The notes under the pieces are model-generated. The model was not told the origin of the DNA and ran no database searches. It worked only from the letters and a program-made list of their open reading frames with translations. From assembly GCA_903813345.2 (NCBI GenBank), contig CAIIXF020000009.1, forward strand, positions 29,610,740 to 29,674,739: DNA of 64,000 nt. The letters are read 5' to 3'. A program made the position numbers and the translations under genes. The stretch comes from Owenia fusiformis (lineage: Eukaryota; Annelida; Polychaeta; Sabellida; Oweniidae). Below, in pieces: positions 12,090-45,255 of this stretch (the stretch's first letter is position 1; every line of letters begins with the position of its first letter).

Positions 12090-15000
12090 TTATTTGTATT
12101 TTGTATTAACAAAACCAAAATCGATTTGGAAACAATACTGTTTACAAATAGTTGAAGGATAATTAGGATCATGTTCTACAACACTAAAGGCCTGAAATCC
12201 ATACTTCCAAAACTGTTTTGCAATTGAATACTTCGTAGGATAGTCATATTTCTGATCTCCAAATATATGCCATTCACTAAGAACCTGTCGCACTTGCTTT
12301 AAAGTACCATCTTCCATCATTCTCGAGAGGATATCAAATTCGTAACTTTCTACGTCCATTTTGAGCACATCAATCTGTAAAATATAATCGTTAAATACTA
12401 TAACTTGCTTCATCAAAGCAAAACGGTTACGGGAGATATCCTCAGGTGAACAGTTTCTCACTATACGTTGTCTATATACTAAACTGAATCTAGGATAGAG
12501 ACTGAATTCAAGAATCACAGGTGTGTACCTCTTGGAGAAATGACTTATGGAAGAAAACAATAGAATCGTTTTTTAAACCGTGGTAAATTATGCTAAAGGG
12601 AATTTATAAAGTGAGTCAAATTGTGGTATATGCTATTTATTTACCGTACTATTTGTGTGTCCGAGCATTTTCATGATTGATTCCATCGTTCGCACTTTCC
12701 AGGTGAAAAGCTTTGATTTTTTGACGTAATTATCTACACGAGGAGTGAAAGTATCAGTGTCGATGGTGCCAATGCCTATGTTGTAGAACCAAATGTTGTC
12801 AGCTCGTTTGTGGCTATCAGTATTCATACTTGAACAATAGCAGCACAGTGTGAAAAACATTGCACCGAATCTGATGATCGTATACGTTCATTCAATTTCA
12901 ATTGCAGATGGCAGTGATCACTCGAGTCAACTGTATTTTCTCATCACACTGTATATCAATCATATACATGTACGAGTATTTGGGTTAAGTTATACAAAAT
13001 GTTTATTTATATGTCTTAAATTCACAAACCTGGGATCAAATGCAAACACCTGGCATCCGCGTCTGGCAAAGTCATCCTCGAATTCCCATTGACCAGCAAT
13101 ACTGAAAAATATTAATCTTTATAAATCATAATCCCCCTACTTGGAAAGGAAAGGTTTTAACTGACATCAGCAACCTACGTCGAACAAAACTGCGTTTGAT
13201 AATACAAATAAGTGTAGGCCTATATATCACACATGCATGTGCCCATGGGGGCCCAGTTTACAAATGCCCTTTAATTTTCCATACACAGAAACATAAACAT
13301 AATAGCATACCATTCGCATTTGTTTTACTTGGCTTCTTAATTTCTGCACTCTGGATTGTGTTGGCAAATTCTTACCCAAATGCGTACACGATGCATGGCA
13401 CCTTCACTTCATATGTCTCGTCCATGCAAGTAGGGTAGATGCCTTCTCCATTTCTTTTCTCGGGAGTGCGACCAACTTTTACAATATTTTTACAATTGTA
13501 TCTCTCTTTCGGCACGAATCTATTTTTACAAAAAATGACAATTTTAAAGAGACGACGAGGCTTTAAACATGTTAAAGGTTATTTTCATTAACATCATATT
13601 ACCATTATCGCGATCACTTAGAAGGGAAACATTCTAATCAGAATTGTGCGTTTGGAGGATACTATTCTTGTACAGGGGTCAAAAATGGAAACCCTGCATG
13701 TTTCGCATATCTTTGTCATTTTAAGAAATTACTCCCTTATATTTCACACATTTGTACATCGTTCAATTTCCTACCCCCTATTATATTCCATGACCATAAA
13801 ACCCGGTATACACCAATGGGGCAAGTTGGGACCTCCATAGACTTAACATTGCGTGGGACCTCGTGGGACCTTTTGGGATTTTCGTGCAGTTTGCATACAG
13901 CGCAATGGTGGCCATTGGGGCATATTTTTTAAAGTCCTGTAACATGGTGACTATCAATATGATGGTTATGAAATATAGTAGTAGGATGGTAGAAAATCAA
14001 ATAATGTACAAATGTACATGTGTACAAAGATATGAGGAAAATGGCGTGTTTCCGTTTTTTGACCACCCTGTAGGAGACTATGCCAGAATAGGAAGCCCCT
14101 CGAAAAACGTTTGCTTCTTGTCACTGTTTCTCTGTAAAGAACAAAATAAAGAAGACTATTCAAGGCAGAATAAAAGACAAAGACGTACGTTTTGAACAAT
14201 AGTTCGGCTTCTCGCCATGTCAGATCAGCCATGCCTCCTGTGGAACTTCCAGAACATCCCTGGAATTTTTTATTACAATACATGCCAATCTTTAAATCAG
14301 TAGACAGTTAAGTTTGATTTAATGCAGCAGGGCCGTAGTCAGGATTAAAATTTTGTCGAGGGAAGTTTTCACCCAAGATGTTTTCAAAGGAAAATGGACA
14401 ATTCGGTGCACTCTACCCGACCACTTTTCAAATACAGGCCTGTAGCTAGGATTTTTCAATTTGGGTTATGTTTTTAGCTGTAAAGGCCTACGTACATGAC
14501 GTAAGGGACTTCGAGACTGAAATGTTGTCCTAATTTTGAATACCACCCCTTTCTGTTTTTTCAATGTTTGATGGATCAACATGTTGCGTTTTAAAAACAG
14601 TTAAACAATTTTTATCAGGGGTACTACTTGTTAAATCCATCCACAGCAAAAATATCAAATTTTGCACGCTGGTGACGTTGCGCCTTTTTAAATCTTATAA
14701 GCGTTTCGGTTATCATCAGTTTGTGTTTGGATAACCTATACGTATACGCAATCATTAACTTTAGTGTGTTTATTTTTATTATATGTACGTTTTTATTCAT
14801 AAAGTAGAATTCTCTCCAAAATTATTGATTGCTTCATGCCTAGCATTTTGGCCATGTAACTATATGATTTTTGCCGAGGCAGTATCGCCCGACTACGGCC
14901 ATGCAACGAATGAAATATTTGAGAAATTGGAACAAACGTACACATGTCAAAGGCTGCTGACTGATTTTAATAGAACTATTTATCAGGATCAGTCAACAGC

Positions 15001-15872: not shown

Positions 15873-17192
15873 AATCCTGATCGTCTATATATGGACAGTT
15901 ATTGACTTTATACACTTGCAAAGGTCGTTTTCGAATTCGTTCACAGATTTTTAACATATTTGTACATACAGGTTGGGCCCAAAAAATTGCAACTTTTCCA
16001 AAAGGCTAGAAATTTTACCTATTTACGGAAACTGAAGGAAAGACATATTTTACGATTCAAATACTTAGCATTCATCATGATCCTTACATGTCTTTTGTAG
16101 AAAAAAATAAGAATATTGGTTGAATAATAAGCCACAAATGAACTCATCTATGCATAAAAGTAATACAAAGAACATGAAGAAACCAACGGTACAATAATAT
16201 CTAAAACACAATATATTCTTCTTTTCAACCTAGTTAGACAATCAACATTGGTTTATTTTGAAGGTTTAGCATATCTAGAAAAAATTGAGATCGAAATTTT
16301 TTAATTTTTTTTTCAAAAACATTTTTGCACCCTAAATAACATCACGATGATCACTTAGGGTGCAAAAGCTTTTTAATATGCTAAAACATTTAAGTGGCAC
16401 ATTAGGTATGACATTTTATTATTCAAACAGTACGTCTTTTGATCTTCGCAGTAGTGGCAAAAAGTTAAAACATGTAAGTTTTGCACTGAATAGTATAATA
16501 TTGCGAAAAGTGACGGGAAAAGAGGGGGAGTTGTTTGTCGAATGAATTGTGGGAGTTTTTTCATGCATTTTGCTAATGTTTTTCATCCAAAAAATATCAA
16601 TACACTTTAAAACAGTTTATTGACTATAAGATTGCACCATATAATCCTAAAAATCTCATTTTCAAGGATTATCTATGGATTAACACCTAGGTATTTTCAT
16701 TTTTCAAACTTCTGAGGACTGATAATCACTGATAATTAACGCTTTTGAATAATATAAAAGCTATTTTAAATAGGTTTCATGTATGCCAATAATTTATCAA
16801 ATTATGTAAACTGTACACACTCTTTAATCGCTAGAATTTTCTCTTAGGGGAATTCCCCATGGAAATCCAATGGTACAGTTCCAAATAGATTTTGAGGTAA
16901 CAGGAAAATAAATCTTTAATACACACCTTTTTGGGTTGCAATGTAAACCAAAACAACCCAATAAGGTGTGTATAAAAGATACAAAAAGTAGGGTTCAAAA
17001 ACAGAAGATTTATATCTACAAGAACAATATTATATATCAGTATGTTAAATGTCGACAATGTATTAATTTAAAAATCCTTAATGACAAACAGAAATACACC
17101 ATTGTTGATCAAATGGGATCTTGCATGTAGAGAAGCACCATTAGGATGACAGCCAAGATTGCAAAGGAAAACATATTTTTTGTTTTCGTTAA
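15873..17192. other. Intergenic stretch between two minus-strand genes
   Basis: No exon was recognised. On the minus strand a TATAAAG box lies at 15906-15912, about 35 bp upstream of the METTL24-like start codon. Two short inverted repeats are present: TTTTGCACCCTAA / TTAGGGTGCAAAA at about 16322-16371 and a longer hairpin at 16917-16977. Confidence 0.4.
16917..16977. repeat. Hairpin with about 23-nt arms
   Basis: TTAATACACACC...TGGGTTG is followed by a short loop and CAACCCAATAAGGTGTGTATAA. Nearly full pairing gives a compact stem-loop. It may be a small foldback element or a structured RNA; no support beyond pairing. Confidence 0.45.
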
Positions 17193-17198
17193 TTTATT
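17193..17198 (-). terminator. Candidate poly(A) signal for the CENP-U-like gene, beyond the satellite
   Basis: AATAAA on the minus strand lies about 85 bp past the end of the 66-bp array. The consensus repeat unit has no AATAAA, so a transcript ending here would carry the whole array in its 3' UTR. Confidence 0.3.
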
Positions 17199-17282
17199 AA
17201 ATTTAAACATATTCCTAATAAATTGGATCACATTTTTGTTGGTATTTGATTACAATTATTTACAATCAAACAGACACTAATG

Positions 17283-19250
17283 TCATCACTCATTAACTGA
17301 ATGATCCATAGTTGAAAATGGACTGATCTTGCACCCATTGTTCAAGTATCATCACTCATTCACTGAATGATCCATAGTTGAAAATGGACTAATCTTGCAC
17401 ACTTTGTTCAAGTATCATCACTCATTCACTGAATGATCCATAGTTAAAATGGAATGATCTTGCACACTTTGTTCAAGTATCATCACTCATTCACTGAATG
17501 ATCCATAGTTGAAATGGAGTGATCTTGCACCCATTGTTCAAGTATCATCACTCATTCACTGAATGATCCATAGTTGAAATGGACTGATCTTGCACCCATT
17601 GTTCAAGTATCATCACTCATTCACTGAATGATCCATAGTTGAAAATGGACTGATCTTGCACACTTTGTTCAAGTATTATCACTCATTCACTGAGTGATCC
17701 ATAGTTGAAAATGGACTGATCTTGCACCCTTTGTTCAAGTATTATCACTCATTCACTGAGTGATCTATAGTTGAAAATGGACTGATCTTGCACCCTTTGT
17801 TCAAGTATTATCACTCATTCACTGAGTGATCCATAGTTGAAAATGGACTGATCTTGCACCCATTGTTCAAGTATTATCACTCATTCACTGAATGATCTAT
17901 AGTTGAAAATGGACTGATCTTGCACCCTTTGTTCAAGTATTATCACTCATTCACTGAGTGATCCATAGTTGAAAATGGACTGATCTTGCACCCTTTGTTC
18001 AAGTATTATCACTCATTCACTGAGTGATCCATAGTTGAAAATGGACTGATCTTGCACCCATTGTTCAAGTATCATCACTCATTCACTGAATGATCCATAG
18101 TTGAAAATGGACTGATCTTGCACCCATTGTTCAAGTATTATCACTCATTCACTGAATGATCCATAGTTGAAAATGGACTAATCTTGCACCCTTTGTTCAA
18201 GTATTATCACTCATTCACTGAATGATCCATAGTTGAAAATGGACTGATCTTGCACCCATTGTTCAAGTATCATCACTCATTCACTGAATGATCCATAGTT
18301 GAAAATGGACTGATCTTGCACCCTTTGTTCAAGTATTATCACTCATTCACTGAGTGATCCATAGTTGAAAATGGACTGATCTTGCACCCATTGTTCAAGT
18401 ATCATCACTCATTCACTGAATGATCCATAGTTGAAATGGACTGATCTTGCACCCTTTGTTCAAGTATTATCACTCATTCACTGAATGACCCATAGTTGAA
18501 AATGGACTGATCTTGCACCCATTGTTCAAGTATCATCACTCATTCACTGAATGATCCATAGTTGAAAATGGACTGATCTTGCACCCTTTGTTCAAGTATT
18601 ATCACTCATTCACTGAATGATCCATAGTTGAAAATGGACTGATCTTGCACCCATTGTTCAAGTATTACCACTCATTCACTGAATAATCCATAGTTGAAAA
18701 TAGACTGATCTTGCACCCATTGTTCAAGTATCATCACTCATTCACTGAATGATCCATAGTTGAAAATGGACTGATCTTGCACCCATTGTTCAAGTATTAT
18801 CACTCATTCACTGAATGATCCATAGTTGAAATAGACTGATCTTGCACCCTTTGTTCAAGTACCATCACTCATTCACTGAATGATCCATAGTTGAAATGGA
18901 ATGATCTTGCACCCTTTGTTCAAGTATCATCACTCATTCACTGAATGATCCATAGTTGAAATAGACTGATTTTGCACCCATTGTTCAAATATCATCACTC
19001 ATTCACTGAATGATCCATAGTTGAAATGGACTGATCTTGCACCCATTGTTGAAGTATCATCACTCATTCACTGAATGATCCATAGTTGAAATGGACTGAT
19101 CTTTCACCCATTGTTGAAGTATCATCACTCATTCACTGAATGATCCATAGTTGAAATGGACTGATCTTGCATTGTTCAAGTATCATCACTCATTCACTGA
19201 ATGATCCGCAGCTGAAATGGAATGATCTTGCACCCATTGTTCAAGTCTAC
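17283..19250 (-). repeat. 66-bp satellite, about 30 copies, derived from the last exon of the CENP-U-like gene
   Basis: Units are 64-66 bp and share the core CATCACTCATTCACTGAATG. Read on the minus strand, a consensus unit begins CTTGAACAATGGGTGCAAGA, which is the sequence that encodes LEQWVQD at the C terminus of the adjacent gene, and it carries that gene's in-frame TGA stop about 54 nt further on. The gene-proximal unit (about 19186-19250) is the real coding copy; the others follow after its stop. Units differ by a few substitutions and one- or two-base A deletions, with alternating ...CCCATTG / CCCTTTG and TATCATC / TATTATC variants that suggest higher-order duplication. Confidence 0.95.
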
Positions 19251-22200
19251 TGTTCACCTCACGTAAGGAGTCCATAGATTTGATTTTAATCTGTGATAAT
19301 GTCAATAGTGCTGGTATGTTCGCTGTGGCACCATAGTCCTGGAATATTGAAACATAATAATAAAACATTAATTTCCATTTTGCACAAAATGTAATCTTTT
19401 AAATTCCCCCGAAATTCTCACATGGTTTGATTTGGTAATTTAAAAGTTTACATTTAACGAACTGATCTCTTTGAACACAATATGGTATAATAGTGAATTC
19501 ACCATGAAGCAGAATATAGGAAATTGAGAGTTCAGAATTTGACTTATTTTACAGTACTATTCGTGGTATACCGCATAACTGTCTACCATGTAACATTAAG
19601 CATTTAATATTCAATAATTAATTTTTCAAGATCAATAATCAAAAGTTCAAAACTATCAACTTAATTTACTGCAAGCAATATCTATTTTGTCTATTCTCGG
19701 GGTACCATGGATAAATATGAATGTCAATATAAGGGTTAAATGTGACATTTAAATTTTATTTAAAATTGTAATCTTTATTTTACACTTAATGCATTTCATT
19801 TTGACCATGGGGGTATTTGCCCCTTATCGCACCCATTCCTTTCATTCATGGCTAGATGATTTATCAAGTATTGAGGAATAGCCTTGGGCCAATATCATAA
19901 ATGCACTTTGGGAGTTCAAAGTCAGTGTGCTTCCAAAGTATCATAATATTATCAAAAACCAACCATATCTTGTTCCTGTGATGGAGCAGTCTCTTCATAT
20001 CTTGTATTCAGATCTTTGATGTCCCCCAACCAATCAGTGATCTCATGTTCCTCAGAGAAACTGTTCTCAGTCACATTTAGTCGCTCCTTGTGGTGATACA
20101 GATCCTCAGACCTACTACAGTAGGAAGATTACAAGTTGTAACTCTAGACATTGAGTTGTTCCATGTAATACTACAGTTTTTCAATTACTTCAGTGATAAA
20201 TACAAATTGTAACACTAGGTATTGAGTCAATCCTTTTGATTGAACACAGTTCCTCAGACTTTTATTACAGGGATAACACAGAGACAAGATATAAGACTAG
20301 ACATTCAGTTACTCCTTGTGAAGGCACAGATCTTCAGACTTACAACAGTGACAAACACAAGATTGACATGGAAACAGGAGATTTTGAGAGAGTAAGAAAT
20401 TAGTGATAAGTGATTCAAACTTCAATGTGCTAAGTATTTAGCTCATGGGTCACATCTTTAACATATCTTTAAATGATAGTTTACATTATAAATAATTACA
20501 TTTAAGCAAATGTAGGACTGGCTTACTTTGCTTTATCTTCCTGGAGAGAAAGTAGCTCCTTTCTGGCATCCTTCAACTGGGAGGTCACCTACACACATTT
20601 CAAAAGTGCAGTAAAAACTGTTTAATCCTAACACAATTGGGACTGGCTAAAAGCGTTTGGATTGGTAGATGTTTACATTTTGAGTTTTTTTTACAAAGAG
20701 AAGTCTATGGCTGAGTAAAAAATGAGACCAATGAAAAGCACATTGAGATGTGTTCAGATCAGAGAAGTGCTGGAATATACAGATCATTTTTCGATATATA
20801 AAGAAGTCTTGCCTTCAAGTTACAACTATTGTATATTATTTTTTACATTATGATTGTGCAAGCCTACAGGGTGTTTCACTTTGATATGTTGCATCTTTTT
20901 TTCAGGGACACCCCTTGAATCTGAAACTTTGCAATCCAATGTAACTTTCCATAAAGAACAAAATGATATATAACATGATAGGGTAGCAATGTTACATGTA
21001 AGCATTTAGGATATACTCTCCAACAAATTCAATCTTTGTTGGTAAATAAACATACACTAATACAAGGGATTGAACAAATATATTTGAATTACTTACCCTC
21101 CGTAGCGCCTTTTTTAAAGTTTTGGTTTCCATATATCCATCTATCTGAAAAATAGAAGAATAGGAATTGAAATAAAACAGGTGATTATCAATGAAACCAC
21201 ACAAATGACTTCATATTTGAAGAACAAGTTGTCCTCCTTTATCCCCTTACTCAACAAGAACTTCAAATCAACGACTGACATGAATTAATGGTCATCCAAT
21301 AAGACACATGACATGAGGTGACATGACACTATACATTAAGTCATCAGGTCAGATGAACGTAAGGCTGGGTTTCATCATTTAATTATAGCAGTGGTAAATA
21401 AAGGTAGAAATCTTTAGTAACCTACCAAGCCTCCTATTGCTTTTGACGTCACTTCTCCAAAGCCTTCAATTATTTCTTGTATTTGCTGATCATCCTCTTG
21501 TTGACTAAATAAAAGCAGAAATGAGAGTGAATTATGAATACAAGATATTAACATGAAAAATGTCACCACCTACAGAATAGCAACAACCAAACAGCAGCCA
21601 CTGATTGCCACTACAAAAAAGTTGGAGACTATAACAAACAATATGTCACCATTTGTGCCTAATAAATACACATATGTTTCAAAGATCTTTCATTACTGTA
21701 GCACCTACGCGGTATGCCACTTTTAAGATGGGTATTGTAACAATCTCCAGTGTGACAGTTAAAAGGAATCATATTTTTTAATGGAAGTGAAGTTCTGCAG
21801 TCGATAAAAATGCATTCTAGAGAGAATTTTTATGTTCACCAATAAAAGTATGAAACGGTATGATGCAATTTATTCACTTACCATGCTTTTCTAATCACTT
21901 CTGCTATGACGTTAATAGCAATGTCTAGGTCCATCACATCATCAATCTTGCGTGAGATACGACCGCCATCCCACATCAGGATCTCCATATCTGAAAAAAC
22001 AAGATATCACTTACTCTGAATAATATATGTGTATATCAGATGCTATACTGTTTTTTATTAGGTGATATTGTTTTAGATTATTTTTCTATGGTTCTTGCCT
22101 GATTTATATCTTATATATACATGGTATATGATTTACATACAAACACATCATTATGTAAAACTGTAAATATTTAAATTTATGTGCATTCATGATGATCAGA

Positions 22201-25200
22201 TGATTCCTACCTTCCATCCCTGCAGGGATGATCTTCTGCTTCTTGGGTCTACCTGGCTTGGCCACCTGCTTGGGGTGAGGTCTTGGAGTTTTATCCACCA
22301 CTGATGCAATTTCCAAATCCTAGAATGTTCATGGGAAATAGCTTCAGGAATACTTACAAATGAAAAACATATCCAGCAAAGTTAGTTGTTTCATGGTAGG
22401 AAATCATAAGTATATTATGCTCCTCAATGATTATGTATTTATTTTTCGCTGAATAAATGACATAAAAGCTGACCCCCAGTATATATATGTCAGAAGGGTT
22501 TGATTAAACACACAGCACTTTTTGTGTATGACATTTTCACCACTTAAATTTGAATCTGTATGTAGATGTACTTGAATGTACACTGTAACCTCAGAACCTA
22601 TCCCATTCCTAGCACTTATACAGAGGTAATACCTCTCTCTGTTTTAAATGTAAGTCATATCCCAAAATACTAATTTCCAGTCCTCCTTTGTCTCTTCCCA
22701 TCTGGGTTGTCCCATGACATACCAAATAGCTACATTTATTTCTTACCTCATCTGCCTCTTTGGTTGGTGACTGAAACCTGCAACAGATAGATATGCTTTT
22801 ACATTGACTGTATTACACATTGCAGTTTGCACTTACATAAAGTAGCACAATAATAATAAAAAAAGGTAAAGTTTTACTTAAATACAAGGGTTGTTCAAAA
22901 AGTCTTGAATGAAGTGCTAAAACAGAAATGACAGAATCAAATGCTGAAATTAAAGAAGTTCCTGAACTGAATGAAATGATAAAAGTAAACAGTATGGACT
23001 GAATGGATTGCTACAATAAACAGAATGGTCCGAATGTTGGCGAAAATGTTTACCTATCAGATGGCTTGAAGAATGTCTTGATGGAGGCTGCTGGGGCACT
23101 GGGTTTCTTGAACATGTCAACTTTCATAAGGTCTGCTCTCTTCCTCTTACCAGTCACTTTAGATAGTGTTGATTTAGACTGTTTGCTTATGGAAGCTTTA
23201 GGTGTTGATTTAGTGGCTGGTTTGCTGCAAATATATGAATACAAGTTGAATGTAAAAATCAGCACATGCTATTCATGCAACAAATAAAAGAGAACCAAAC
23301 TTCAAATATTAAAACTACTTTTGGTGATTGTAACAAAATGTGCAGTTTGATGAGGATAGCAAAACGCACTAAAACATCTCTGTATACATTTTAAAATAAC
23401 TTTTATCTCTCTTCCAAATTGTGGATGGGAATTAAAAATTTCAACTTTTTTCATTTCAATCATATCAATTTAAATCACTTTTACATGGAGTTTTAGCTTT
23501 AAAATTCAGGCCATATAAAGATTATAATTACTGTTTTATTGAAAATCTGTAAACTCATAAATGCTCCCATTTTGAAAGAGATGGTAATGAGTGTCAATAA
23601 GGAAGTTAAGCTACATGTTTTAAAGATAACTTGTATGTGTACATGTGAGATCCCCAGGCCGGGATTACAGTACTCTCAATTGGTTTTTCCAGAGACTTAA
23701 TTACACTTTTTTATACCTTTAAACTCAATGAGGGGAGTGCTGCACATTCATCTACAAGTTCTCATAAAAATGTGTAGCTTAATCTCCCTTATGTATCCTG
23801 ATGCTGAAAAGTGAAACATGTAAACTAAAATATACAAACCTGATGGGAGTAGAGGTTCTAGTTAAATGTACTTTCAGATACTTTTCTGCAACAATAGATT
23901 CAGAAGTTTTCTCTACAGTCTCTGCAGAGGTTTTCCCATCCAAAATAGATGTCCGAGTTCTAGTAAGCCGTCTTTTTGTTGGTTCAACAGGACCTGATCT
24001 TGGAGTGCCTTCATCGATGATATGTCCACTTGGAGTGTCATTGGAAACACCTGGTGTGTCTTTATTAGTTAATGTTACATTTCTTTCCGAATCAGATTCT
24101 GAACTTAAAGAAGTGATTTTGTTTCTACTTCTACTTTTCACTGGAGAAGACATTCTTGATGCTGATCTTGTATTCACTGGACCAGAACTTGGAGTGCCAT
24201 CTATGATTAATATCCCTCCTCCAATAGGTGTGGAAGTTTTATTGCTTGATTTGCTTCGTAAACTTCGTTGTAAAGTATCTTTAGCAGGAGTTGGTCTTGA
24301 TGATATGTTCTTGGCAGGTGTCTGCTTTGAAGATGAGTCAATTGTTGGTGTTGACCTTGACGAAATGTTAATCTGAGTTGCTGCAAAACTAATGCGACTT
24401 TTCCGGGTTGATGATATCTTGTTTTTAGCCTTCACAGATTCTGAAATTAAAGTGCCAAAAAGGCCCAATAGCTGTTATTCTTATACAAATAGTTTTAATT
24501 CATCAATAGGTAACTACCTTACACAATCAATAGGCTTTGACATCAAGATTTTTTGTAATGTAATTATCAGAGGTGGATTTTTGTTTTTTTGTGTATATAA
24601 GAATCAGAGATAGAGACTGAATCCCTTTAAAGAAAGGCATATCATTGCTTGATAAGCCTAATTTCGGAAGAATCTTCTTACCTTCTGCATCTTCATCAAT
24701 TTCTATTGCAGGAGTGTTATCTTCAACATCATTAACTTCTTCATGTGGAGCAACATCTCCCTCTTGTTCTACAACTTCTTGTTCCTTCTCTCCTTGTTCC
24801 TCCTCTCCTTGGTCCTCTTCTTGTTCCTCCTTTCCTTTTTCCTCTTCTTGTTCCTCCTCTCTTTGGTCCTCTTCTCGATCCTCCTTTCCTTGATCCTCCT
24901 CTCCTTGGTCCTCCTCTCCTTGGTCCTCCTCTTCTTGGTCCATCTCTTTATACTGTGTCTCTGGAACCTCGGCTACATTTTCATTATCATCATCAGGGGA
25001 TTCAGCACCTAAATCTTCTGTGTCAGGAATGGCTTCCTCTTCTTGTGTATCAGGGACTATGGGATCAGTATTCTCTGTATGAGCAGCCAAATGGTCTAGA
25101 TCTTGAGTTTCTGGTATTGGACTTCTTGATCCCTCATGACTTGCATTAGAATGTATTGTGTCCCCTGTAAATACATTGTCCTCCCCTTGGCTGCTCTCAA

Positions 25201-28200
25201 CCTGACCCCCAGATACTGACGTGTCTGCTTCTATTGGGATAGGAGATTCTGGCTCAGAGGTTGAGTCCTGTAGGGTAAAAAAAGCTTTCAATAATTGTGC
25301 AGAAAATTCAAATGTTTTGAGTGACTGGGTAACCAGTGTAATTCTGGCTTTATTATATTATTTCAGTGATCTTAACAGCAATAGAGCAAACGAGAGATGC
25401 ACCATGTTGAAAATTCAAAATTGGATGCTTCCCTGTTAAAAATCCGTTTGCCCATATCAAAAGGATGACTTTTGACAGAATTTGAGAAAAAAAGATAAAA
25501 TTAGGATTTTGCACCATGTTTGGAAAAATGCATATTCATGGATGGATTAAACATAAAATAGTTCTGGAGTTTAAGATGATATTCAAATGTAGTAAGTTGG
25601 TAATAGCCCTATTTCAGTACACTACACCCAACATTCCAAGACGTCTTGGCTAAAACGTTTTAGAAAATTATGTTGAGTTTACACCACCATTTTCAAGATG
25701 TCTTACGAAATATGATTGAGTTTAAGGGATATGTAGGAATATGTACTGGTAAAATGAAAAAAAAGCAGTTCAGTACTGGTTGAATGACGGTTCCGTCAAT
25801 ATAGCTGTTCCTTTTCCACTTCAATACTTTGGGCTAAAGAATGATAAGAATGATAGATCGCCAGGCAAATTAGTGCTTCTCGATATTTTTGGGATGATAT
25901 TGGGAACAAGGAATAAGACAAAAGTAAGGACCATGCGACACACAAGTTTCAAAGATGTTCTTTAATTTTTCCTGATTTATAATAACCTGCTAGTTCAATG
26001 GTCAATTGGCTTTTTTAGTGTTGTTTAATTTCTCATATTAACCTGCCAATTCAATGGTCAAATGGCAATCACTGACTTTTCAAATGACCTCAGTCTGTAT
26101 TACTTATTTACCTGGAAGAAGTCATCTGCTGTGTATTTGTGCTTGGGTTTCTCTAGCACCTTCTTAGTCTTGGCAGGCGGATCATCCTGTGGGGTCTGAC
26201 TAGTAAAGGTGAATGGACGCCTTGTTGTACTTCGTTTCCTGGAAAATAAGATTGAATTTATATATGTAAATCAATTCATGGGCTTTCAAGAGAATAACAA
26301 GACAGAGGTTTATATGGAGTACATAGTTTAGTAGCTAGCCTATTGCATGAGATTGTATTGGGTCTAATTTATCGCGTGCCTACGTGTAGATGGACTTATT
26401 TATCCTGTGTTTATGTCGAATTTGTGCAATCATAAACATATTTTGCCACTAAGTTTTTTCTTTAGAGAAACAAATTGAAACAAAGGAAATGTATTTCTAG
26501 CATAGAACTATGAATAAAGGTATTATTTTGGATTAGTTAGATAAAGCCTTTCCACAGCCGCCAAAATTTGAAGTTCATTTTTCATTTTTTATATCAAAAA
26601 TTTGGTTGTCTATGTCTATGTCAATAATCTGCAAAAGGCTAATAAGCCCATATAAAGCAGATATATAATTTAACAGTGATAGAATTTGAATAGAATATGA
26701 TTTAAAACCTTAACATTTAAAAATAGATCTATGGTTTACAGCTCATTTTACCTGGGGAGACTGTCAGGCTAACCGCGTTGACATCACCCCCTTTTACCAG
26801 TAGTGCAGGCTTGTTGCTGTGCACTGGGGACCCTTTACATTAAAACATAGATCTATATTAAAAACACACCTATTTAATTGCAGTTATTGACATAGGCATA
26901 GTATGATGATTTAAAACTACTTAGACTGTCACAGTCTAAGATGTCACCAGGTAGAGTGTTCCATTTAGCTATTGTCCTAGGGAAATAGCTAAATTTGTAT
27001 GCATCCGTTCTAGCTGATGGTTGTATGAACTTAGAAGGATGATACAACCTAGTGTTGGTATTGATCTGTTGGCGGAAGTATGGAGGCACGTCGATGGCTG
27101 CTAGGTTCTGCTTTCCTTTGTAGAAAAGGAAAACTCTAGCAGCCTCTCGACGCTCCTTCAGTGGCTCCCACTGTAGGTCTTGAAGAGCTTTGGTGACGCA
27201 GCCTGGTTCCCTTGAGTGACATTTGGTTACAAACCTGGCTGCTCTTCTCTGTACCTGTTCCAACATATCAATATCTTTTTGTCGGTATGGATCCCATGCC
27301 GAGCTGGCATACTCTAAATTAGGCCGGACTAGTGACTTATACGCCTGAGCCTTCACTTTTTCAGGGCATTGATGGAGGTTGCGCCTGAGAAATCCAAGCA
27401 CCTTATTGGCTTTGGATACAATAGTTTGAATATGTGTAGTCCAGCGTAAGTTATTTGTGATGTCAATTCCTAGGTATGGGATGTGTGTTACCGACTTAAG
27501 GTTTTCCCCTAGCATGGTGTAATCGTGCATGATAGGGGATTTACCTTTGTGAATATTTAGCACATAGCATTTTGATGGATGGAATTTCATTTGCCATGTT
27601 GATGCCCAGGAGACCAGTTTATCAAGATTCTCCTGTAGTGTTAATGCATCTTGCTTGCTTTCGACTGTCATGAATAAAAGGCTGTCGTCGGCAAAAAGCT
27701 TAAGACTGGCTGAGGATGATAGGTTATTGCCCATATCATTGATATAAACAAGGAAACAGAGTGGTCCAAGAACTGTTCCTTGAGGAACTCCTGATTTTAC
27801 TGGAGTTTTTGAACTTGATTCACCATCGAGCACTACCTGTTGTGATCTTCCCACAAGCCAGGATCTGAACCAGTTCAAGTTATTATTGCGAATTCCATAA
27901 TAGTCGAGTTTGAGCAAGAGGCGTTCGTGAGCCACCGTGTCAAACGCTTTGGAAAAGTCTAATACCAACATGTCTGTTTGTTTATTGTTGTCGAGGGCCC
28001 GAGCTATATTCTCTATTGTATTGACAAGTTGTGTTTCACATGAGTGCTTTGACCTGAATCCATGTTGGAATTTTACTAGAATTTCATAGAGGTCAAAGTG
28101 GGCCATAACATGATGGAATATAATATGTTCCATTATTTTACATGGAACTGACGTCAGAGATACAGGCCTGTAATTCACAGCCTCATCTCTTCGTCCCTTT

Positions 28201-30050
28201 TTGTAGATAGCAGTAACATTGGCATGTTTCCAGTCCAAAGGCACTAAGCCTTCATCGATAGACTGTTGAAAAATTATTTGAAGGAATGGTGATATGCTGT
28301 CACTGCATTCCTTCAGGACCCTAGTCGGAATAAGATCGGGTCCAGTGGCTTTTGATGGATTTAGGCCAGTTAGCAATTTGTGAATTCCTTTTGTCGAAAT
28401 TTTGATATTTGGCATTTCAGGAATTTGACTAGGTACCATTGTCGGTAGAGTGGCATCCTCATCTGTGAATACAGAATTGTATTGGTCATTGAGGATGTTT
28501 GCTTTCTGGGCGGCGTCTGTTATTTCGTCGCCATCTTTGTTACGCAGCACGCTGATACCTGATGCATCTTTGCGTTTAGACTTTATATAGCTCCAGAAGC
28601 GTTTGGTAATGCCTTTGTGCTGAACATTCTCATTTATGATTTCGCTTTCATCAATGTCAAGCAGATCGTTGATGTAGCGCTGATGTTCTTTACGAATTTC
28701 ACTATGGATTAATTTCCGTAGTGATTTGTATTTATGCCAATGATGAGGTTCATTTGAACGTTTGGCAACATTATATCGTCTTTGTTTCTGTCGGATCATT
28801 CTCAGTATCCTGGTGGTAATCCAGGGTACTTTGAATTTCCCACTTAGAGTTTTACTTGGAATATGCTCATTGATTGACGATATTAATGTAGATTTGAAGG
28901 AGGACCAGTTGTCTTCAACTGATCTACTTTCACAGTTCTCTTTGAATTCGCTGAACTTAGATCGTAGAGTCTCTTTAAGTCCAGTCCATTCTGCCCGCTT
29001 GTATATGTGGACCTTACGAGGCTTCTTTTTCTGAATTTTCATTTTTAGGTTTATATCACATAGGACTGCCTCGTGATCACTCATGCCCGGAACCACCGAG
29101 ATTCTTTCTGCGAGGTTTGGGCATGTAGTGAATACTAAGTCAAGGATGTTATTTTGTCTAGTTGGTTCCTTGACTAGTTGGGTTAGGCCATGATCATCAG
29201 TTATTGTAATCATCTTCTCATTAAGATCATTAGAATATTGAGAATTAGGCCTTATAGTTCCATTCTCCCAATCGATGTCTGGTAAGTTGAAGTCACCACA
29301 TAGGAAGATGTTTTTCATATGTGTATTACCATTAGCATAAAGTTTATCGAGGGATGTTTGGAGCGAGTCCAAAGCACCAGTATCGTTGTTTGGTTGACGA
29401 TAGAAGGATCCAAACAGTGTGTCCCCATTTGATAGAGATGCTTTGGACCATATGATTTCGCAATCAGCTGTCGCTTCATATTCGACTGATATGAAGTCAC
29501 TTTTGACTGCGATTAGGACACCGCCAGCACCTTTCTTTCGGTCTTTCCTGTATGGAGGTGGGCTAAGGTAGTCTTGACCAAATATCCATTTGCTGTCGAT
29601 GGTGTTGTCCAGGTGAGTCTCACAGCCTATGATGACATCTGGCTTGTGAGTTTCAATTAGTTGTTGAAGGTGTAGTTGCTTCTCATGACTAATTAGACTG
29701 CGGAAGTTGATAGACATGAGGCGAACCTGGTTTCGCCTCTTTCGTGCAGTCGGCCTCGGTGGTTCTGATTCGGTAGAATCAGATGATGATGACGAATTGT
29801 CAAGATCAGAGAGAGCGCTGAAGGAGTTTGTTACCGAGGAATGAGAAAGAGTGGAGTCATTGAAGAAGCTGTTGGAAAAATTAGGTAGAGTTTTGCAGAT
29901 TTGAATGATAAACATAAAATTTTGAAAACGGCTAAATTGTTGATCTACTCACGTAGCTCTCCTATGGGGGTTATTCACTGCTCTTTCAGGCATAAAAGTA
30001 CTAACTTTCCTCCCCTTTTCATCATAAGTTTGAGAAAGAAATTGTGACAT
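19186..30050 (-). CDS. CENPU: CENP-U-like kinetochore protein (complete, 13 exons, 774 aa)
   Basis: Minus-strand exons: 29953-30050, 26112-26238, 24682-25267, 23840-24440, 23054-23224, 22747-22777, 22211-22319, 21882-21990, 21426-21504, 21097-21144, 20527-20588, 19964-20114 and 19186-19338; all borders are GT-AG and phases agree (775 codons with stop). Residues 1-75 are basic; about 76-180 carry four (I/V)P(E/D)T(Q/E) motifs; about 180-260 are an E/Q/D-rich repeat; 270-530 are Ser/Thr/Lys-rich; KPGRPKKQK (559-567) is an AT-hook-like core. The C-terminal 200 residues are helical and match the CENP-U layout: MEILMWDGG start, heptad-rich middle, then NIPALL (731-736) and LREVNSRLEQ (749-758), close to the SLPALL and LRNINHQLEK blocks I recall for human CENP-U. 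CENP-U is part of the CENP-O/P/Q/U/R group of the inner kinetochore. The protein is much longer than the 418-aa human one because of the middle region. The identification rests on the C terminus only. Confidence 0.7.
20609..20790. repeat. Degraded copy of the TACAGTRAAACC MITE family
   Basis: GCAGTAAAAACTGTTTAATCC at the left and GTGTTCAGATCAGAGAAGTG...ATATACAG at the right resemble the better copies at 41382 and 43071. It lies in intron 11 of the CENP-U-like gene. Confidence 0.4.
20871..20990. repeat. Fragment resembling one arm of the CAGGGTGTCCC element
   Basis: CTACAGGGTGTTTCACTTTG is followed by AATCCAATGTAACTTTCCAT and AATGATATATAACAT, words shared with the arms of the element at 59700-60342. 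No second arm was found. Confidence 0.35.
21546..21655 (+). repeat. Second copy of the AATGTCACCACC dispersed repeat
   Basis: TATTAACATG...AATGTCACCACC and AACAATATGTCACCA match the 5991-6130 copy. It lies in intron 8 of the CENP-U-like gene (between exons 21882-21990 and 21426-21504). Confidence 0.5.
24760..24950 (-). repeat. In-frame acidic coding repeat of the CENP-U-like protein
   Basis: CTTGGTCCTCCTCTC-type units on the plus strand encode EEDQGEEDQ-type repeats on the minus strand within exon 3. The mixture of GAGGAGGACCAAGG variants suggests slippage or unequal crossing-over inside the coding sequence. Confidence 0.85.
26720..29950 (-). mobile_element. Jockey/CR1-group non-LTR retrotransposon in intron 1 of the CENP-U-like gene
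   Basis: The element lies in the same orientation as the host gene. Its large ORF is intact (26874-29915) and about 150 bp of 3' UTR-like sequence follows. No ORF1 or clear poly(A)/microsatellite tail was identified, so the boundaries are approximate; the upstream end can be no further than the exon 1 donor at 29952. The lack of disabling mutations suggests a recent insertion. Confidence 0.8.
26874..29915 (-). CDS. LINE ORF2: endonuclease plus reverse transcriptase (1013 aa, intact)
   Basis: A Ser-rich N terminus (about 1-50) is followed by an exonuclease/endonuclease/phosphatase domain (about 65-290) with the expected acidic and histidine residues: E99 in GCETHLD, GDFN (207-210) and SDH (279-281). 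The reverse transcriptase spans about 500-790, with YRPVSLTSVPCKIMEH (582-597), LDFSKAFDTV (652-661), GVPQGTVLGP (709-718) and the catalytic FADD (741-744). The C terminus (about 900-1013) has the WEPLKERRE and YFPRTIAKWNTLP blocks usual for jockey/CR1-type elements in invertebrates. The protein would nick target DNA and copy the element RNA at the nick. All key residues are present and there is no frameshift. Exact clade (CR1, L2 or jockey) is not settled by eye. Confidence 0.93.
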   Translation of the reverse strand: MFIIQICKTLPNFSNSFFNDSTLSHSSVTNSFSALSDLDNSSSSSDSTESEPPRPTARKRRNQVRLMSINFRSLISHEKQLHLQQLIETHKPDVIIGCETHLDNTIDSKWIFGQDYLSPPPYRKDRKKGAGGVLIAVKSDFISVEYEATADCEIIWSKASLSNGDTLFGSFYRQPNNDTGALDSLQTSLDKLYANGNTHMKNIFLCGDFNLPDIDWENGTIRPNSQYSNDLNEKMITITDDHGLTQLVKEPTRQNNILDLVFTTCPNLAERISVVPGMSDHEAVLCDINLKMKIQKKKPRKVHIYKRAEWTGLKETLRSKFSEFKENCESRSVEDNWSSFKSTLISSINEHIPSKTLSGKFKVPWITTRILRMIRQKQRRYNVAKRSNEPHHWHKYKSLRKLIHSEIRKEHQRYINDLLDIDESEIINENVQHKGITKRFWSYIKSKRKDASGISVLRNKDGDEITDAAQKANILNDQYNSVFTDEDATLPTMVPSQIPEMPNIKISTKGIHKLLTGLNPSKATGPDLIPTRVLKECSDSISPFLQIIFQQSIDEGLVPLDWKHANVTAIYKKGRRDEAVNYRPVSLTSVPCKIMEHIIFHHVMAHFDLYEILVKFQHGFRSKHSCETQLVNTIENIARALDNNKQTDMLVLDFSKAFDTVAHERLLLKLDYYGIRNNNLNWFRSWLVGRSQQVVLDGESSSKTPVKSGVPQGTVLGPLCFLVYINDMGNNLSSSASLKLFADDSLLFMTVESKQDALTLQENLDKLVSWASTWQMKFHPSKCYVLNIHKGKSPIMHDYTMLGENLKSVTHIPYLGIDITNNLRWTTHIQTIVSKANKVLGFLRRNLHQCPEKVKAQAYKSLVRPNLEYASSAWDPYRQKDIDMLEQVQRRAARFVTKCHSREPGCVTKALQDLQWEPLKERREAARVFLFYKGKQNLAAIDVPPYFRQQINTNTRLYHPSKFIQPSARTDAYKFSYFPRTIAKWNTLPGDILDCDSLSSFKSSYYAYVNNCN

Positions 30051-30296
30051 TTTTGTTTGAAGAGTTTGGGGAACACATTCCAAAATACCTTATGGATATA
30101 TCACGATTATTCATATAAAATTCTGTGATTGTCGGATCTCATTCAAATTGATTTAAATTGTTATAAAAAGTTAAGAACCCCAACTCTTGTTGATGATAAT
30201 TAACAAAAAACATAGCATCAATTAATTAGACTGTGTCTTTGTCCTACTTCCGGTTTGAATCATGAAATGAGAAATTTTGAATTTCCACTATAGATC

Positions 30297-31876
30297 CATA
30301 GGAGACAGGTTACCTGAAAAGGAAGATAGATATCATTATCAAGGACTGAAACTGAGGCAAGTCTACCCTGGCTGAAATCAGCTCTGAAATAACATCTACT
30401 GCATGTCAAGCCGTCATTCAATGCTGATTTTGTAGAAAACAGATCTGTCCATCCTTCTACATGTGAGTTTTTCCCATAAAGATGCTTGATTAAGTAGAAA
30501 TTCATCAAATTATACCCCTAGAATATCAAAGTTCAACTGTACATCAATCGCGTGAGGAAAAAAAACAAATCCATTCTTCACCTTCTGTTCACAAACCCTT
30601 CTTCTTCTTCTTGGAAAAGTTGTCCCTCATTTGACTAACAGCAAATGTGTATGTTTATGCAGCAATATATGTTAGTTTAGAAAATGATTAATTACTATCT
30701 TACCTGTACTTCACAGAAACATCCTAAGTATGAAAATATTTCACTAAAAATACATGCTTCCATTTTGTCACATGTTCATAATAATTTACATATTGACCAT
30801 GTGATGTTGACAGGGAGTGTAAACGCACCTGCGTACAGGAAATATGTTATGATATTTATTAAGAAATTAGGTATGGTAATCATTATTACTTATTGTATTA
30901 AGCCCCCAACCCACTTCACAAAGTTCATGAAGTACCAAGGAAAGACCAAATATAAATAAATTAGAAAAATTTGAATTTCCCAAAAAATCAAGTGGGCGAT
31001 AATAGAGTCTCTGAAACATTAAATTTTTCCTTCATTAACTTATTACATACATTATTTTTAGATAATATTAGTTTGATATGGTGTGGAAAGCACACAATGA
31101 TAGATAATTATCGGGAGTGCATTGAAAATTACAAGATATGTCACTTTTGCCATGTTTCAGAGGCTCTATTATCGCCCACTTGATTTTTTTGGAAATTCAA
31201 ATTTTTCTAATTTATTTAATATTTGGTCTTTCCTTGGTACTTCATGAACTTTGTGAAGTGGGTTGGGGGCTTAATACAATAAGTAATAATGATTACCATA
31301 CCTAATTTCTTAATAAATATCATAACATATTTCCTGTACGGTAGGTGCGTTTACACTCCCTGTCAACATCACATGGTCAATATGTAAATTATTATGAACA
31401 TGTGACAAAATGGAAGCATGTATTTTTAGTGAAATATTTTCATAATTAGGATGTTTCTGTGAAGTACAGGTAAGATTGTAATTAATCATTTTCTAAACTA
31501 ACATATATTGCTGCATAAACATACACATTTGCTGTTAGTCAAATGAGGGACAACTTTTCCAAGAAGAAGAAGAAGGGTTTGTGAACAGAAGGTGAAGAAT
31601 GGATTTGTTTTTTTTCCTCACGCGATTGATGTACAGTTGAACTTTGATATTCTAGGGGTATAATTTGATGAATTTCTACTTAATCAAGCATCTTTATGGG
31701 AAAAACTCACATGTAGAAGGATGGACAGATCTGTTTTCTACAAAATCAGCATTGAATGACGGCTTGACATGCAGTAATTGTTATTTCAGAGCTGATTTCA
31801 GCCAGGGTAGACTTGCCTCAGTTTCAGTCCTTGATAATGATATCTATCTTCCTTTTCAGGTAACCTGTCTCCTATG
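30297..31876. mobile_element. 1580-bp foldback element with 8-bp target duplication
   Basis: Arms of about 724 bp (30297-31020 and 31153-31876) are near-perfect inverted copies separated by a spacer of about 132 bp. The element ends are CATAGGAGACAGGTTACC and its complement, and the exact 8-bp sequence TATAGATC flanks both sides (30289-30296 and 31877-31884). An 8-bp duplication is typical of hAT-type transposition. Each arm holds an exon-like open segment (minus strand 30306-30508; plus strand 31665-31862). Confidence 0.85.
31665..31859 (+). other. Exon-like open segment inside the foldback arm (mirrored on the minus strand at 30314-30508)
   Basis: An open frame starting MMNFYLIKHLYGKN runs about 65 codons to DNDIYLPFQ and stops at a donor-like CAG|GTAACC next to the element end; upstream a TTCTAG|GGGTAT acceptor-like site precedes it. 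The mirrored arm keeps the same frame with few changes (for example CSN versus CSR). I do not recognise the sequence. It could be a captured host exon, or element sequence that happens to be open. Confidence 0.25.
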
Positions 31877-32311
31877 TATAGATCATCCATTATACCAGTA
31901 AGTACTGAAGGAATTAATATTATTTTGTGCGCAAATCAAAAAGCCCAGATTCTGCTAACTAATACATTCGTATTTTGGAGGGGCTGAACTCAAACTGAGT
32001 TTTGGAAAGAGATTCTTGAAAACGTATTTTATGAACAGCCCAAAATTCATGATGATTCTGCGTAGAGAATTGCATCAGTCGATTAGTCTAGAAATCAAAG
32101 TCTATAAATATAGACTTTAGATTTAGATCTAATGATCAATGTGAAATATTTGAGTGTAAGATCTTTCGTTTTTTATTTACCAATCAAGTATGTGATGTAA
32201 GCATAAAAAGGAGGCCATTTTGTCACCAAAGCTCCTGCTCTGGGAATAGTTACAATCTCGCAGAGAGGCCTCCAAACTTTTCCATTTTCTACAAAGAATT
32301 TTACAATCTAA

Positions 32312-37300: not shown

Positions 37301-40300
37301 GAACTACATACTTGGCTATGATAAAACTGTTGCTTATTTCAGTGTTTGATATTGTGAAGAACTACATTCTTGGCTTTGATAAAACTGTTGCTTATTTCAG
37401 TGTTTGATATTGTGAAGAACTACACTGCTGACTATGACAAGACACTCATTTACAACAAAGTCCACCATGAGTTGAATCAGTTCTGCTCAGTCCACAACCT
37501 GCAGGAAGTTTACATCAATTTGTTTGGTAGGTCTTTAAGATATTCTCCAGTCTTAGTTGGATAACATGACGATGACCACATTTTCATGATTGAAACTAAT
37601 TGATCTGTCAATAAGACATAACAGTATTTTCTCCAAAAGAGTAAAACTTATCTATTCTAGTGCCACTGGGACTGTCTAAACATGTTCGGATTAGCAGGTA
37701 TTCGCATTTCAAAGTTTATTAAAAATAGAAGCGAATAGGAGGTTTGATACACTATGAAAATTGGGTGGCCAGAATACAGAGTGTTCAGATATACAGGTTC
37801 TCCTGTACCAATACTATCTTATAACTCCAATATGTTTGAACCATAATAGGAGAACACACAATTAGACCCTCAACTTTTTGATTAAGGGCCCCAGTTGGCA
37901 TGTCATAGTGAAGTGGCCTCTGTAGTAATTTGACAACCATCAAGATTAGATAAGATTTGTTGATTCTGCAGATAAATCACAATTAAGAATATCTTAAACC
38001 TAAAAACTCTTTTGGCTTTTGCACCGCAAAAAGTTTAGTGTCATTCATGATTTCAATTTAATTTTTATAGGCTGTCAGTGTCACTAGGATTCGGTACTAC
38101 TATATTGTAATGTTGTTATCTTAATCTATAGTACTATATTGTAATGTTGTTGTCTTATTTTATAGATCAAATAGATGAGAATCTAAAGACAGCTCTACAG
38201 AAGGACTTGAACACTATGGCCCCAGGTCTATATGTACAGGCAGTCAGGGTTACTAAGCCAAAGATTCCAGAACAGATCAGGAAAAACTATGAATTAATGT
38301 GAGTATAGACAAACCTGTTCAGTGAACCTGGCTTAGACCAATTTTCAAGTAAACAAATATTGTTAAACCAATGTCCACATGATGTAAAAATATTTTAGCC
38401 TGGTGTTGGTCATTTTGGTATGCTCTATGAGTTTGTTGTAAAGTAGTTCTTCATTCTTGAATTGCATTTTATAATATAGCCTGATGAACTCTACTTTGCA
38501 TAACTCCTCATCATATCTGCTTCAGTTTGATTTCTGAAGGCATATCCATTGTGCTTATGGTTATGTTTGTTTTTCTCAAGGGAAGGGGAGAAAACCAAAC
38601 TTCTGATTGCACATGAGAAGCAGAAGGTTGTAGAGAAAGAAGCAGAAACTGAAAGGAAAAAAGCTATTATCGGTATGTTGTTATTGTCCCTGTATCGATT
38701 CAAAGCACATTGCCAATACAAACATAAATACAAAAAAGGTTTAGTTACAGAAGCTATATTGTCTATCATATATAGGGTGAGTTAAAATTGTCATACTTGT
38801 CTCATATTTTCCATTCATTTTCAGAGGCTGAGAAAATAGCATCCATATCTAAGATTACATGGGAGCAGAAAATCATGGAGAAAGAATCACAGAAAAAAAT
38901 ATCAGAAATAGAAGGTATTTTGTATAACTAGTTTTAAAATATCATCTGTGATCTTCCCAGCATTAAAGCAAGTTGGTGGAACACCCACCTGAGATTTTAA
39001 AAACAGGCTTGCACCCACCTGAAAATCCATTTGCACCCACTTCAAAATGAGAAAAATCATGAAAATTTGGCATATTTTGACCATTTTCTGTGTGAATTGT
39101 GAAAATGTGAATGAGAAATCCTGGGGAGATCACTGATCATGTACATTGATAACAGTCATAAGTCAGGCATGGAGCAGGCGAGGCAATTGCCTCGCCAAAA
39201 GTTTATAGTCAAAATTTGTTCAGACATTTTTTCCAAATTTAGTATAGACTATACCTCATTTAGCCTCAATTTGCCTTCCCTATATTTTGTCCTGCAAATG
39301 CAAGTCAATAAAACACAAATTCATGGAAAACATTGTGCTAGAATGGTCTGATTTGATAAACATATATTTGTTTAACAGACTTTTTATGACTAGAAACACC
39401 AGCGCCTTTGCTTTTTCTGAATAGCTACAGTTTTGCAGTTGGGGTCTGCATATGTGAAACATGTGAAGTTTAAACATGAAATATGAGAGGCATGTGCCAC
39501 ATAGTGATGTGAAAGAAACATGTGAAACAATTATGTTTTAGATTCCACTAGTCTTGCTAAGATCAAATCTAAGGCAGATGCTGACTTCTACAGTGTCCAG
39601 AAACAAGCAGAGTCCAATAAGGTGAGGTTTAATGATCTAATAACCAAACATCCTGTTAAGTTGTTACCATGTTAATTCTGAAAAAAGTGAAATAGACACT
39701 TGATTCTGAGAGTTTGAAAAAATTTAACTGATATAGCCCCATCTCTAATTCTCAACAGATGAACGATTGTCCATCTTACAATCTGCAAACTTGAACCTGC
39801 ATTTGTATACAATTGTATTGACATCACATCTAGGACCTGACTTGGGATGATCAGTGATGATCCTTGACTTGAGAATGACGCAAACTTGAACCTGCATTGT
39901 ATTGACATCACATCTAGGACCTGACTGGGGATGATCAGTGATGATTCTTGACTTGAGAACGACGCAAACTTGAACCTGCATTGTATTGACATCACATCTA
40001 GGACCTGACTGGGGATGATCAGTGATGATTCTTGACTTGAGAATGACGCAAACTTGAACCTGCATTGTATTGACATCACATCTAGGACCTGACTGGGGAT
40101 GATCAGTGATGATTCTTGACTTGAGAATGACGCAAACTTGAACCTGCATTGTATTGACATCACATCTAGGACCTGACTGGGGATGATCAGTGATGATTCT
40201 TGTCTTGAGAACGACGCAAACTTGAACCTGCATTGTATTGACATCACATCTAGGACCTGACTGGGGATGATCAGTGATGATTCTTGACTTGAGAACGACG

Positions 40301-45089: not shown

Positions 45090-45255
45090 CTTAAATAATT
45101 CATGACTGTTTTATTCATGAGTAGCATACATGTTTGAGTCTTTCAATGTCTATGATTAACCTTCAGACAACTTTTTAGTGTAATTTAAAACCGAGTACAT
45201 AGGAGGTGGATTGATTTGTCAATTCTGATTGGTTTCTGTTTCAGAAAGCTTCAAG

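Follow-up and report, generated by a model that had tools for sequence, protein, structure and literature searches.

A local minisatellite in the genome of the annelid Owenia fusiformis probably arose in place, by amplification of the 3' end of a CENP-U-like gene's last coding exon. The stretch of DNA analysed here (the window) is 64,000 nucleotides long, and the array occupies positions 17283-19246, where it reads on the minus strand as 30.0 copies of a 66-bp period with 95% matches (Tandem Repeats Finder, TRF). A first-pass annotation, made from the sequence, had placed the last codons and stop of the gene within a 30-copy array, and this is borne out by TRF, by a division of the array into units and by the in-frame passage of the terminal coding exon into unit 1 (19246-19182), which is coding, with units 2-30 lying past the stop. 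Splitting the array on the minus strand gave 30 units, of which 19 measure 66 bp, 10 measure 65 bp and a single one 61 bp; the final unit was trimmed to 66 by the splitting script.

Minisatellite units are roughly 10-100 bp in size, and the array is of this kind, local and head-to-tail, with 30 copies of 65/66 bp. The earlier term 'satellite' appears overstated for a 2-kb local array with no further copy in the 64,000-base window. A 37-mer spanning the unit junction has 29 matches in the window at up to three mismatches, every one of them inside the array (shuffling expects 0.00), and outside the array resemblance to the unit is limited to matches of 11-15 nt. A 34-mer from the unit had 0 matches in IMG/VR and 0 in prokaryote contigs, as expected for an animal repeat and uninformative about this animal. 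The array itself was rejected as a coding sequence, since no stop-free run exceeds 30 residues (plus strand) or 22 residues (minus strand). Stops occur in all three frames near the end of each unit, so that unit 1 alone can be translated as part of the gene's protein.

The gene adjoining the array is represented by seven minus-strand exons, D to J, which run from 22319 to 19183 and form one open frame, with all seven acceptors ending in AG and all six donors beginning with GT. These are exon D (22211-22319, its upstream junction provisional), exon E (21882-21990, inside the Pfam CENP-U match), exon F (21426-21504, donor score 2.55), exon G (21097-21144), exon H (20527-20588), exon I (19964-20111) and the terminal coding exon J (19183-19338). 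The donor of exon I, ATG/GTTGGT, scores -0.13, the lowest of the six; despite this weakness, the junction of exons I and J is crossed without a gap by the alignment to human CENP-U. The first base of exon J, 19338, is preceded by CAG, and the exon consists of 93 nt, 19 codons of unit 1 and a tandem TGA TGA (19188-19183). The model is incomplete at its 5' end, exons upstream of D being seen partially. An acidic, Glu-rich open frame at 24530-25357 on the minus strand, within which a 15/27/54-bp array lies at 24775-24941, has the appearance of an exon situated upstream in this CENP-U-like gene.

CENP-U partners CENP-Q in the inner kinetochore, and the gene is likely, although not certain, to be CENP-U on the basis of its predicted protein. 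The CENP-U-like label given at first reading has moderate support, from the best Pfam hit and from a shuffle-controlled alignment to the human protein. The Pfam family PF13097 (CENP-U) is the top match but falls below its cut-off (16.5 bits against 21, E 0.0087), and the second Pfam match is to an unrelated RNA polymerase model (E 0.014). In a search of PDB sequences, Centromere protein U was found at E 0.64 over residues 88-221 of the query, fourth of the six sequences listed. CENP-U was absent among the Pfam and PDB matches of an earlier, 136-aa gene model, and pairwise BLASTP of the gene model against human CENP-U gave nothing significant (best E 0.92). Alignment of the 235-aa model to human CENP-U scored 78, compared with 36.6 +/- 6.5 for shuffled sequences, 0 of 2000 being as good. 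Exon J aligned to the last 50 residues of human CENP-U with a score of 45 (shuffles 20.7 +/- 4.0, 0 of 5000 as good), and shares with it, at matching spacing, the signature IPALL, LR, N and LE (IPALL...LR..N..LE). By these shuffle tests, similarity to the human protein is collinear up to the C-terminus; the human chain (7pb8_U, 418 aa) ends in LRNINHQLEKLLDQG.

Exon J enters unit 1 in frame, reading SLREVNSR followed by LEQWVQDHSISAADHSVNE and then TGA TGA, so that the 65-bp unit 1 supplies the residues LEQWVQDHSISAADHSVNE together with a pair of in-frame TGA stops. The terminal exon had been equated with the first unit; unit 1 does end the last exon, although 93 coding nt precede the CTT of LEQ. 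The 66-bp consensus unit had likewise been credited with LEQWVQD and the gene's in-frame TGA, but it has one T more than the 65-bp unit 1, which shifts the frame to read LEQWVQDQSIFNYGSFSE* and to close at a different TGA. At the C-terminus, LEQWVQDH in the window lies at the place matching LEKLLDQG of the human protein. The local alignment to human CENP-U stops at LEQ/LEK, and a second BLASTP piece reaches LEQWV; inside the unit, L and E are the only residues identical to human. Of 79,220 stop-free 21-nt translations from other parts of the window, 790 (1.0%) resemble LEKLL at least as well as LEQWV does, and a 7-mer version of the test found 666 as good (0.84%). The remaining 12 residues, HSISAADHSVNE, are without a human counterpart. 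The conserved reading frame, as judged from these comparisons, probably enters the unit. The first-pass annotation had described the C-terminus beyond LEQ as written in satellite sequence; because LEQWVQD sits where human CENP-U has LEKLLDQ, that direction is probably the reverse of the true one.

The real last exon could instead lie elsewhere, with exon J spliced at GAG/GTGAAC (19257) and the array intronic. This donor scores 2.34, near that of exon F and above that of exon I, but residues resembling the human protein go on past it into the unit (V-N--LE), and the minus strand from 17283 to 15500 offers, as its best match to the human end, a score of 12 against 18 for exon J's own 12-mer. The 12-mer comparison is a weak one, as scores of at least 18, and up to 28, are reached by chance at nine further positions on the minus strand of the window. 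Overall, an intronic array is considered improbable.

With the frame taken to continue into unit 1, the question becomes whether the exon or the array came first. Between the exon and the flank at its other end the array holds 30.0 copies, as predicted by duplication in place; by arithmetic, a random phase would fall within 2 nt of a whole number in 5 of 65 cases. If the extra repeats were removed, the stop would sit approximately 85 nt before an AATAAA, and an AATAAA starts within 90 nt of 10.7% of minus-strand positions. The entry of the frame into the unit, the whole-number copies and the AATAAA 85 nt past the array together favour amplification from exon to array over invasion by a repeat. 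The duplicated segment would have run from the L of LEQWVQD to just beyond the tandem stop. On this reading the 29 remaining units belong to the 3' UTR or to the flanking sequence directly 3' of it.

The alternative is that a pre-existing minisatellite or satellite was inserted into, or joined by deletion to, the end of the gene, with loss of the native last codons and reading through to the stop of the first unit. Any frame entering the unit meets stops in three frames near the unit end, and the position of the stop then needs no coincidence; similarly, a unit end just behind the stop comes free with invasion and needs luck if the array was seeded in place. The tail HSISAADHSVNE, lacking a human counterpart, also fits an invading repeat, and tandem arrays are frequent in the window, where eight hand-picked from the TRF output add up to 4,236 of 64,000 bases and the seven other than that at 17283-19246 to 2,272 (3.6%). 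Invasion, however, would leave the likeness of LEQWV to LEKLL to chance (the 1.0% above), as well as the whole copy number, and beyond the array the window holds only the 11-15-nt matches to the unit. A search for terminal inverted repeats flanking the array (16700-19420, exact seed of 9, length at least 12, shorter ends escaping such a search) found none, and a transposon as carrier of the array was rejected on this ground. The sole hairpin found in that interval, at 16912-16980, is an inverted repeat whose 27-nt arms are separated by 15 nt; it lies downstream of the array, just past the poly(A) signal, and is possibly the remnant of a small mobile element. An invading array is unlikely on this evidence and the exon is favoured as the seed. 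The earlier claim that the gene was amplified into the array is therefore the preferred one, short of proof, given that the human homology seems to enter the unit and that the copy number is whole.

Following seeding from the exon, the array would have grown by unequal exchange or gene conversion, processes that are established theory for tandem arrays. Units resemble their neighbours more than they do distant units (permutation P 0.0011 with gap columns, 0.0038 without), mean pairwise difference between units is 6.0% with gap columns and 4.1% without, and seven unit pairs, confined to units 8 to 24, are identical; the likeness of neighbours and the identical pairs fit unequal exchange or conversion. 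Units 1, 3-7, 13 and 26-28 have the 65-bp form, while the other units of the middle, like units 29-30, have the 66-bp form. This layout suggests that the T insertion probably arose later, as a one-base change in a single unit, and would then have spread through the middle of the array, converting 65-bp to 66-bp units. Unit 1 differs more from the others than any other unit does, on either count (mean 6.59 differences with gap columns, 5.24 without), suggesting that it rarely exchanges with them. An apparent gradient of divergence from the ends to the middle (Spearman -0.50, P 0.005) disappeared when gap columns were left out (-0.16, P 0.39) and was dropped as support; the balance between exon first and array first is unchanged by this, as the gradient is irrelevant to which came first.

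A scan for 11 poly(A) hexamers (AATAAA, ATTAAA and nine variants) found none between 19250 and 17199 and an AATAAA at 17198 (17193-17198, minus strand), the first canonical signal after the stop, 85 nt past the end of the array, with a T-rich stretch no more than about 30 nt further on. The prior statements that the first poly(A) signal comes after the array, and that the array lies in or just after the 3' UTR, both hold, units 2-30 following the stop. Stretches of 1,900 nt on the minus strand without AATAAA and ATTAAA make up 1.9%, a figure that is no independent surprise because the array is one unit repeated. The lack of a scanned signal in the array and the AATAAA 85 nt beyond it point to an mRNA that would carry some 1.9 kb of repeats, and a 3' UTR with 29 units, or about 1.9-2 kb, is plausible from the arrangement of these elements.

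A selected function is improbable for the array, whose main effects would be a long repetitive 3' UTR and differences in length between alleles. It might on the other hand act as an element of the 3' UTR, or provide a store of alternative C-termini for a kinetochore protein that evolves fast. When set in frame behind NSR, 27 of the 30 units give a tail of 17-19 residues and the other three give tails of 15, 7 and 7, although near-identical units yield such tails trivially. The distance of unit 1 from the rest, suggesting little exchange, argues against a store of this kind, the predicted fold of three units barely beats shuffled sequences (z -1.96, 9 of 200 as good), and Rfam gave 0 families at the gathering score in the window. 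A functional array is accordingly regarded as very improbable, and a stable RNA structure in the array was rejected on the same three-unit z score. Equally far-fetched is the more specific proposal of a reservoir of C-terminal cassettes, in which exchange between unit 1 and the array would replace the end of the kinetochore protein, each new tail being terminated by the unit's own stops, and give a fast-changing C-terminus.

Elsewhere in the window, a putative 321-codon open frame with 28-residue repeats (39748-40710, minus strand, Pfam matches below cut-off) contains an 84-bp (28-codon) array at 39812-40608; kinship between that array and the one described here was rejected, the shared stretch being only 15 nt (E 1.5). 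A 1024-codon stop-to-stop frame at 26874-29948 (minus strand) encodes domains of an endonuclease and a reverse transcriptase (Pfam RVT_1, E 3.1e-33) and represents, as predicted from these domains, a non-LTR-like retrotransposon whose long frame is uninterrupted. At 30260-30517 and 31656-31901, a near-same stretch of 80 residues is encoded on opposite strands, and a large inverted repeat at 30260-31901 is therefore likely. A WAPL domain, that of a cohesin regulator, is found at 50668-51021 on the plus strand (Pfam E 7.7e-9), opposite to that of the CENP-U-like gene, and a long frame upstream of it at 45229-46803, without a Pfam hit, may belong to the same gene. An open frame at 12093-12572 (minus strand) has a borderline FkbM methyltransferase match, at 22.4 bits against a cut-off of 22.7.

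Should the gene have seeded the array, then the seed, the flanks on either side and the coding copy all survive in place, which would provide a clean case of how a minisatellite starts and of how a gene tolerates an array beginning in its last codons. Should the mRNA contain the repeats, one could measure directly how their length affects the message. Arrays being frequent in the window, one that overlaps the end of an exon is unremarkable, and the kinetochore identity of its gene is most simply a coincidence. The first-pass view that an origin from a kinetochore exon is unusual carries little weight, as the window has other arrays and as both gene-derived satellites and 3'-UTR arrays are known. 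A narrow search of open-licence PMC papers found no satellite traced to coding codons and a stop.

CapA is a satellite DNA of New World monkeys, reportedly first described by Valeri et al. in 2018. Passages in two later papers give its suggested origin as an intron of NOS1AP (PMC7210261, PMC8210747), and the likeness to the present case is that a piece of a single-copy gene served as the seed of a tandem repeat, through duplication and unequal crossing-over (PMC7210261, PMC8210747). As those passages describe it, CapA differs in having an intronic seed, a unit of about 1,500 bp and a share of about 5% of one genome, whereas the Owenia seed would be coding sequence with its stop, and one local array is known here. 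The zinc-finger array of Prdm9 is located in the last exon of its gene. According to part of the account in PMC3890296, it too is a tandem array within a gene, turning over as a coding minisatellite (PMC3890296). The units of Prdm9 are translated, whereas here all units end in stops and the first alone is read. A parallel in position, from a section of PMC8210747, is the CharSat01-52 array of Astyanax mexicanus, whose 34 imperfect monomers span about 1.8 kb near the end of the ppfia1 3' UTR; the authors suggest insertion there after an origin of the satellite elsewhere, and the repeat is common to many species (PMC8210747). The model of Haber and Louis, as outlined in a portion of PMC3389668, has minisatellites born by duplication between short direct repeats and resembles the present case in that a unique segment is duplicated in place and then expanded, although by eye no clear 5-10-bp direct repeat is seen at the two edges of the array here (PMC3389668). 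More generally, a passage in PMC5615363 states that satellite repeats could in theory come from any sequence. A gene-derived repeat and an array at the 3' end of a gene each have precedents, and the Owenia array is probably a neat but ordinary case of minisatellite birth.
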